Source: Paracoccaceae bacterium
GTDB taxonomy: Bacteria > Pseudomonadota > Alphaproteobacteria > Rhodobacterales > Rhodobacteraceae
Reading direction: 5' to 3'
Assembly (NCBI GenBank): GCA_024639125.1
Contig: JAHEJA010000014.1
Location: 1-64,000, forward strand
DNA: 64,000 nt
This document shows, in pieces, positions 1 through 1,257 of the stretch. The notes below the pieces were generated by a model, which was not told the DNA's origin, did no database searches, and saw nothing but the letters and a program-made list of their open reading frames with translations. Within the stretch, counting starts at the first letter, position 1. The number at the start of each line of letters is the position of its first letter. The translations under genes and the position numbers were made by a program.

Positions 1-521
1 GCTTCTTCTGTAACCACATCCGTTGCGTCAACGGCTTCTTCTGTCACGGCATCTGTTGCCTCTGCTGCGTCTTCGGCAACGTCTTGGGTCGTTGCTTCAA
101 TCGCGTCCACTGTTTCTTCGCTCGCTTCAGTCACCGCATCGGTTTCTTCGACAACAACATCCGCTGCTTCAGTTGTCGTCTCGATGGCAGTGTCTGCAGC
201 ATCCGTTACAGTTTCGCTCACGGCGTCAACTGCATCCGCCGCAGCATCTGTTGCTTGCTCGACAGCTGTTTCAACGGCCTCCACCGCAGTATCGCTCGCC
301 GCTTCTACAGTGGCGTCAGCGTCTTCAACAATTGTTTCAGTCGTATCAGCGACGGCATCGGCAGCATCCGTTACTGTTTCAGTGACGGCTTCAACGGCTG
401 TTTCAACATCAGTGGTTTCAACAACATCTGACACCGCATCAGACACTGACATTCCAGTGTAAACTTTGTAGCCGACAAAAAGTACGGCAATCGCAATAAC
501 TGCAAAGATTACATTTTTCAT
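1..521 (-). CDS. Acidic low-complexity membrane-anchored protein, partial
   Basis: The gene runs off the left edge, so its C-terminus is unseen; about 173 residues are readable. The start is an ATG at complement 521-519 with AAAGGA seven bases upstream. Residues 4-17 (VIFAVIAIAVLFVG) form one hydrophobic helix, followed by a single lysine at 19. From residue 25 the visible chain has no Lys, Arg, Pro, Leu or aromatic residue and is almost wholly A, V, T, D, E and S. Near-repeats such as TVTDAADAV, TVTDAADTA and ATDAAADAV recur. This looks like an N-terminally anchored or exported protein with a long, strongly negative, probably helical or disordered tail. No family is recognised. It is divergent from infC. 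The frame is open throughout and the opposite-strand frames are its mirror. Confidence 0.75.
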   Translation of the reverse strand, partial: MKNVIFAVIAIAVLFVGYKVYTGMSVSDAVSDVVETTDVETAVEAVTETVTDAADAVADTTETIVEDADATVEAASDTAVEAVETAVEQATDAAADAVDAVSETVTDAADTAIETTTEAADVVVEETDAVTEASEETVDAIEATTQDVAEDAAEATDAVTEEAVDATDVVTEE

Positions 522-711: not shown

Positions 712-714
712 ATA
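699..714 (+). promoter_or_regulatory. Shine-Dalgarno and ATA start codon of infC
   Basis: AAGGA (699-703) is followed by an eight-base spacer and ATA at 712-714. The frame is open only back to the TAA at 667-669. Between that stop and 712 it contains no ATG, GTG or TTG. The codons after ATA read ARRPHNAPP, the usual N-terminus of Rhodobacterales IF3 just after its initiator. The sequence therefore points to ATA as the initiation codon. Confidence 0.8.
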
Positions 715-1257
715 GCTCGCAGACCTCATAACGCGCCACCTTCGCGCGACTCCGGCCCCCGTGTTAACGACCGGATCCGGTGCCCAGAAATTCGACTAAT
801 CGGTGCAGAAGGCGAAAACGTAGGATTAATCACACCTGAAAAAGCACTTGTCATGGCAGAAGAAGTCGGACTTGATTTGGTGGAAATTTCTCCGAATGCC
901 AACCCACCCGTTTGTAAAATCATGGACTTTGGCAAGTTCAAATACGAACAACAAAAGCGCGAATCTGAAGCTCGGAAAAAGCAAAAGATCATCGAGATCA
1001 AAGAGGTCAAGTTCCGTCCAGGGACGGATACTCATGACTACGAAGTCAAAATGCGCAGCGTGATTAAGTTTCTTGAAAACGGTGACAAGGTGAAAATTAC
1101 ACTTCGTTTCCGTGGTCGTGAAATGGCGCACCAAAACTTGGGTCGTGAATTGCTAGAACGTGTTTCACAGGATGTGAAAGACACTGGCAAAGTTGAAAAC
1201 ATGCCCAAAATGGAAGGTCGCCAAATGACCATGATGATTGGTCCTGTGACCAAGTAG
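712..1257 (+). CDS. infC: Translation initiation factor IF-3
   Basis: IF3 binds the 30S subunit, prevents premature 50S joining and checks the start codon-initiator tRNA match. The 181-residue product has the full two-domain form: N-terminal domain about 1-85 with [14 protein letters not shown] and [18 protein letters not shown], a lysine-rich linker ([14 protein letters not shown]), and a C-terminal domain with [17 protein letters not shown] and [12 protein letters not shown]. The first ATG (853) is residue 48 and would delete half of the N-terminal domain. The start is therefore placed at ATA 712, after a good ribosome-binding site. In E. coli infC starts at AUU, and IF3 represses its own translation by rejecting non-canonical starts; the same loop is inferred here. 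The gene stands alone and is closed by the terminator at 1292. Confidence 0.93.

Follow-up and report, generated by a model that had tools for sequence, protein, structure and literature searches.

A conserved Rhodobacterales envelope protein with a signal-anchor, an acidic 11-residue-repeat arm and a predicted three-helix head is a candidate periplasmic tether

The window analysed here, the whole stretch of 64,000 nucleotides, opens with the 5′ part of a gene for a cell-envelope protein of the Rhodobacterales that combines a signal-anchor, an acidic hendecad arm and a predicted three-helix head. The three-part layout, the amphipathic period of 11 residues, the position next to infC and the conservation within one bacterial family can all be read from the sequences compared. 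We propose that this protein acts as a periplasmic tether or stalk, a reading to which we assign a probability of about 45%, and we infer a dependence on cations and a partner for the head.

Within one bacterial family, which is abundant in the sea, the protein is widespread and its locus is fixed. We conclude that it represents a real, conserved Rhodobacterales family of envelope proteins, unnamed in the Pfam and NCBIfam libraries searched. It bears an unusual arm on a known physical kind, the membrane-anchored 11-residue-repeat proteins, and does not constitute a new class of system. Among the top-listed titles and abstract openings from searches of the open-licence literature, none described this protein family, an absence that is weak evidence. 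The head offers a clean handle for defining the protein family. The arm amounts to an experiment by nature on an 11-residue amphipathic repeat with essentially no basic residues, and its behaviour bears on both hendecad coiled coils and LEA-type disorder.

The gene continues across two contigs

A frame on the minus strand (521..3) starts at an ATG and remains open for 173 residues to the edge of the window. The first base of the window is also base 1 of contig C27, so the gene is cut by the contig edge, as an earlier note on this DNA had recognised. Positions 1-121 of the window are identical to positions 1-121 of a second contig from the same genome, C73, in reverse orientation. Across this exact 121-base overlap, the part in the window (1..521, minus strand; 173 of 254 residues) runs in one open frame into the remainder on C73 (L004:122-365, plus strand). 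The joined frame encodes 254 residues: an anchor at residues ~4-22, an arm at residues 24-198 and a head at residues ~199-254.

A 33-bp tandem array flanks the joint, with 2.2 copies (76% matches) on one side and 4.3 copies (85%) on the other. About two of its 11-residue units lie in the window (4..74, minus strand), and it continues on C73 as L004:48-190. This repeat probably caused the break of C27 at the window edge. Because the array is found on both sides of the joint, the number of units there is uncertain; the reading frame and the head are certain. An assembly artefact was considered, given that the 121 end bases shared by the two contigs lie inside the 33-bp repeat. It was rejected since the same layout occurs uninterrupted in relatives, which indicates that the gene is real. 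The head profile matches a single time in the window's own genome, and a single-sequence scan of genome contigs found no relatives.

The arm is acidic, nearly free of basic residues and periodic

The earlier note had described a long tail of extreme composition, and this was borne out. The arm visible in the window (residues 24-173; 3..452, minus strand) is devoid of K, R, H, P, L, F, W, Y, G, N and C, as is the complete arm of 175 residues (24-198). The statement that the tail holds only small, beta-branched and acidic residues was nearly correct, with one M and two Q found besides A, V, T, E, D, S and I. The short recurring units that had been reported are present, TVTDAADAV and TVTDAADTA being repeated in the arm. 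The net charge of the complete arm is −56 over 175 residues, with 56 D/E and zero K, R or N.

A repeat of 11 residues emerged clearly. Identity within the arm (24-198) was 0.384 at lag 11 (z 7.1) and 0.320 at lag 22 (z 4.8), scored against 500 composition-preserving shuffles. When hydrophobic periods from 3.2 to 4.2 were scanned, power was maximal at a period of 3.65, and this power was matched by 0/1000 shuffles. In the 11-residue register of the window arm, A/V/T/I predominate at positions a, b, e, f, h and i, and D/E at positions c, d, g and k. If helical, the arm would be amphipathic, one broad face being lined by small residues and another being acidic.

We found the anchor-arm-head layout in 83 further ORFs, a hydrophobic anchor being a condition for inclusion. 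The 84 proteins including that of the window gave 78 distinct ones; four further head-bearing ORFs, in which the script detected no anchor or no start, were left out: L059 (cut by a contig end), L061 (with masked bases), L014 and L056 (start search unsuccessful in both). Arm length among the 78 distinct proteins ranges from 54 to 439 residues (median 204.5), and the arms (15740 residues) are composed chiefly of A (38.0%), E (15.5%), T (13.5%), D (10.4%) and V (7.6%), with a median net charge of −0.26 per residue. The V and T content and the acidity of the window arm are above the family average. Since such an arm recurs in the bacterial family, its composition is characteristic and not a freak of one genome. 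The absence of basic residues claimed by the note holds for the window arm; family-wide it is common but not universal, with no K/R in the arms of 36 of the 78 distinct proteins and at most two in 60. Arms contain 0.78% K and 0.08% R (0.86% together), against 8.99% K and 1.05% R in the heads, so the scarcity of basic residues is specific to the arm. His and Cys amount to 0.0% in the arms and likewise in the heads (4395 residues) of the 78 distinct proteins.

Period statistics were computed for the 77 arms with at least 60 residues. Identity was highest at lag 11 in 30 arms and at lag 22 in 25; in a shuffled control with one copy per arm the best lags were spread, and lag 11 was best in 4. The lag-11 z-score exceeded 3 in 64/77 arms; as it was 3 or lower in the other 13, the repeat in identity is not shared by every arm. 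The hydrophobic period peaked at 3.62-3.72 in 68/77 arms, and the summed spectrum peaked at 3.65, where the mean normalised power was 31.9 vs 1.29 at the heptad period of 3.5. The amphipathic 11-residue pattern is thus kept while arm length and sequence drift.

These data bear on two other explanations. The arm could be a neutral low-complexity linker whose length changes by slippage of 33-bp units while selection acts on the anchor and head only, and both the tandem array and the spread of arm lengths fit such a process. However, E and D codons are a single transition from K and N, yet the window arm holds its 56 D/E with no K, R or N; moreover, the amphipathic phase is preserved in 68/77 arms and two genomes (described below) encode an arm without a head. 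We therefore consider drift of this kind very unlikely. In line with the surface charge layer or cation binding raised in the earlier note, the arm could serve the periplasm as a polyanionic buffer for cations or a layer of charge, for which the median net charge of the arms and the −56 of the window arm speak. A pure charge layer would need neither the 3.65-residue amphipathic period nor a conserved head, and we regard it as improbable.

The amphipathic helix that had been suggested for the tail stands as a sequence pattern, with its 11-residue period and a hydrophobic period of ~3.65 across the family; a folded helix is a prediction of low confidence. In a model of full-length L035 (22 rows; mean pLDDT 61.7, pTM 0.30), the arm was drawn as long helices with pLDDT values of 36-72 by ten-residue block, and the head reached 77-87.

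The head is conserved and predicted to form three helices

The earlier note had pointed to the downstream part of the protein as the place where a known family might appear. This part proved to be a conserved head of ~55 residues with no convincing match in Pfam, NCBIfam or the PDB. Thirty heads aligned over 58 columns with a mean column identity of 60%, residues F8, K27 and P41 being invariant. AlphaFold2 applied to the L090 head (48 rows) returned three helices with a mean pLDDT of 87.0 and a pTM of 0.66, and a three-helix head is predicted on this basis.

Neither the complete window protein nor its head gave a Pfam or NCBIfam match above cut-off. When the 30 heads were compared with Pfam at E≤0.1, six families appeared; the commonest, TcaA_2nd (2/30, best E 0.00096), and the others were judged to be chance matches. 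When the head profile was run against PDB sequences, 11 matches passed E≤10, none of them convincing. The best match (E 0.0034) was to C3HR3_4r, presumably a designed repeat protein, and was set aside with no stretch passing alone. Natural PDB chains, such as CdnC and STI1, were also dismissed as kin of the head, their matches starting only at E 0.5. The best of the 141 Foldseek matches to the head model (E≤10) had an E of 1.4, leaving none at or below 0.001. Kinship was not accepted, as many of the best 50 of the 141 are generic three-helix folds, including, among the matches listed, paramyxovirus phosphoprotein X domains and affibodies.

The anchor favours an outward-facing arm

The N-terminal membrane anchor (residues ~4-22; 456..512, minus strand) has counterparts in the relatives, with a similar pattern of M[KRN], a hydrophobic stretch and GY. 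A tyrosine is present at residues 15-22 in 77 of the 78 distinct proteins. In 76/78, the five N-terminal residues carry more positive charge than the 12 that follow the anchor, and in 2/78 the two sides are equal, a charge bias that favours a predicted topology with the N-terminus in and the arm out. No canonical lipobox was seen by eye in the anchors of the relatives. In one relative, L022, an apparently cleavable signal peptide, read by eye as HSAYA|M, takes the place of the usual anchor.

The gene occupies a fixed locus beside infC

A search with the single head sequence found the protein in 99/198 same-family genomes, and a 30-row head profile raised this to 117/198. In the order sample the head profile matched 191/244, every row listed belonging to the same family. 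In the class sample it matched 6/385, of which five were of the same family and one was marginal (E 9.3e-4, with an internal stop). The 'same family' sample of the window probably spans Roseobacteraceae and Paracoccaceae; Sulfitobacter belongs to the former and Vannielia to the latter, both within the Rhodobacterales.

We compared 57 named loci from genera including Sulfitobacter, Roseovarius, Tateyamaria and Shimia. A divergent infC adjoins the gene in 56 of these, the exception (L059) being cut at a contig edge. In the window this synteny marker, which lies outside the protein, is found at 712..1257 on the plus strand and encodes IF-3 (TIGR00168, 260.3 bits; cut-off 60). On the other side, a convergent ferredoxin-NADP-reductase-like (fpr-like) gene is present in 48/57 loci, within 300 bp in 30; among the nine loci without it, some stretches end early. 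The fpr-like gene of the window genome scores above cut-off for Pfam FAD_binding_6 (27.9 bits) and below it for the NCBIfam ferredoxin--NADP(+) reductase (115.8 bits vs 390). The intergenic stretch towards the fpr-like gene contains a stem of 12 pairs flanked by A and T runs (L004 385-415), likely a two-way terminator. With infC divergent upstream and the stem-loop and convergent fpr-like gene downstream, the gene looks monocistronic.

The infC frame itself apparently starts at an ATA, upstream of an ATG at 853, and the extended frame covers the whole IF-3 N domain. This start pattern fitted 20 of the 57 named loci (ATA in 19, ATC in one), the other 37 falling outside it.

Among the 81 family genomes negative for the head, 15 were inspected over ~1.5 kb on each side of infC, using a script filter and the eye. 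An anchor and arm without a head were found beside infC in two of them, L106 (2227-2835) and L112 (338-1294, minus strand). L109 has a diverged head, and L110 is truncated where the stretch compared ends. In the remaining 11 of the 15, no such protein was seen within ~1.5 kb of infC. The head-less arms and the genomes in which no such protein was seen suggest that the arm may act without the head and that some genera may do without the protein.

A model for a periplasmic tether

In the proposed tether, the N-terminal signal-anchor would fix the protein in the inner membrane with the N-terminus in and the arm out. The hendecad arm, with its A/V/T face and its D/E face, would keep the head off the membrane, and the head would dock on a putative envelope partner. 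The near absence of basic residues would cause arms to repel one another. At seawater-like ionic strength, and with Mg2+ or Ca2+, this charge would be screened and the arm could turn helical, possibly pairing through the A/V/T face; in low salt it may be a disordered polyanion. A bolder version is a salt-switched tether, whose arm, kept free of basic residues, would be a disordered polyanion in low salt and, at the cation levels of seawater, a hendecad helix, either extended or bundled; the position of the head would then report or respond to external salinity. We hold this version to be highly doubtful.

Several observations count against the tether. The arm of L035 is modelled as helix only at the 36-72 pLDDT given above. 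An eightfold range of arm lengths would be intolerable for a strict ruler spanning the periplasm. In addition, L106 and L112 retain arms without heads, and the protein was not seen in 11 of the 15 head-negative genomes inspected.

Relation to known proteins

The nearest physical analogues are LEA_4 and hendecad proteins. Among studied proteins, the physically nearest that we found is BilRI, a lipoprotein of the outer membrane that has 11-mer repeats and lacks aromatic residues (PMC8096337). BilRI is predicted by PSIPRED to be 97% helical, but by NMR it is disordered, with at most 19-21% helix in the repeats (PMC8096337). Like the arm protein, BilRI is membrane-anchored, low in complexity, built of 11-mers, free of aromatics and predicted to be helical. 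It differs in being a lipoprotein whose repeats contain lysine, ten of the eleven ending in KD[A/T], whereas the arm protein has a transmembrane anchor, near-zero basic residues and a conserved, predicted three-helix head. This case also weighs against the tether, as a helix predicted for such a protein proves little.

BilRI is a precedent for a membrane-anchored, LEA-like disordered protein in bacteria (PMC8096337). By extension, the arm could resemble LEA_4: a disordered, highly soluble 11-mer chain that would turn into helix under desiccation, cold or salt stress and shield the membrane or the proteins of the periplasm, with a secondary part for the head. The A/D/E-rich units and the 11-residue period resemble the 11-mer motif of LEA_4 (group 3 LEA) proteins, and the arm is retained without the head in L106 and L112. 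However, the regular lysines that accompany D/E and A in LEA_4 repeats are missing here, K and R making up 0.86% of 15740 arm residues. LEA_4 is absent from the Pfam matches listed for the window protein at E≤1 and for 22 relatives at E≤0.01. Furthermore, the head aligns across relatives at 60% mean column identity while arm length varies eightfold, which is unlike a pure protectant. We judge a protectant role to be rather unlikely.

A coat similar to phasins or apolipoproteins is a further alternative, in which the amphipathic arm would lie on a hydrophobic surface, either a membrane leaflet or, if the arm is cytoplasmic, a granule. Among 22 full-length relatives, 11 match Phasin_2 (PF09361) and 11 match Apolipoprotein at E≤0.01. 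The Phasin_2 match runs along the arm, and its gathering score of 24.9 was exceeded in 2/4 relatives scanned singly (L035, 27.7 bits; L040, 28.0 bits); L054 fell just under it (24.0) and L047 had no match. The match was absent (E≤0.1) from two full and two column-wise shuffles of L035, the four of nine shuffled copies that were scanned, indicating that it does not reflect composition alone, and Phasin_2 was kept as a rival for this reason. Conversely, the window protein has no Phasin_2 match at E≤1 and reaches 21.8 bits for Apolipoprotein (PF01442) against a cut-off of 90. Phasins are soluble granule proteins that are not known to carry a membrane anchor. By comparison, the window protein and its 83 relatives have an N-terminal hydrophobic stretch, together with an acidic arm of variable length and a separate head. 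An A/T/V face with acidic flanks would also be a poor binder of anionic lipids. Taken together, these points make a coat unlikely.

Hendecad coiled-coil stalk proteins have an 11-residue period and an anchor-stalk-head layout. The tether that we prefer resembles them in its three-part layout and in its hydrophobic period near 11/3 = 3.67 (68/77 arms; 3.65 in the window), but the arm is almost without basic residues for interhelical salt bridges, and its predicted helix comes from a single-chain model. The Ag473 family lipoprotein model NF047840 is matched by 13/22 relatives at E≤0.01; L035 scores 27.6 bits against its cut-off of 100, and the canonical lipobox was not seen by eye.

TolA has an N-terminal inner-membrane anchor, a long A/E-rich middle and a small C-terminal domain. 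The anchor/arm/head layout is similar, and the relatives L007 and L012 have TolA-like arms containing KAAEEAAAK. In contrast, TolA is absent from the Pfam matches listed for the window protein (E≤1) and for 22 relatives (E≤0.01), and the locus is that of infC and the fpr-like gene, not tol-pal. L007 (genome G003) also carries tandem copies of the gene (790-1668 and 1872-2279), the second being short, at 134 residues, and located directly downstream of the first.
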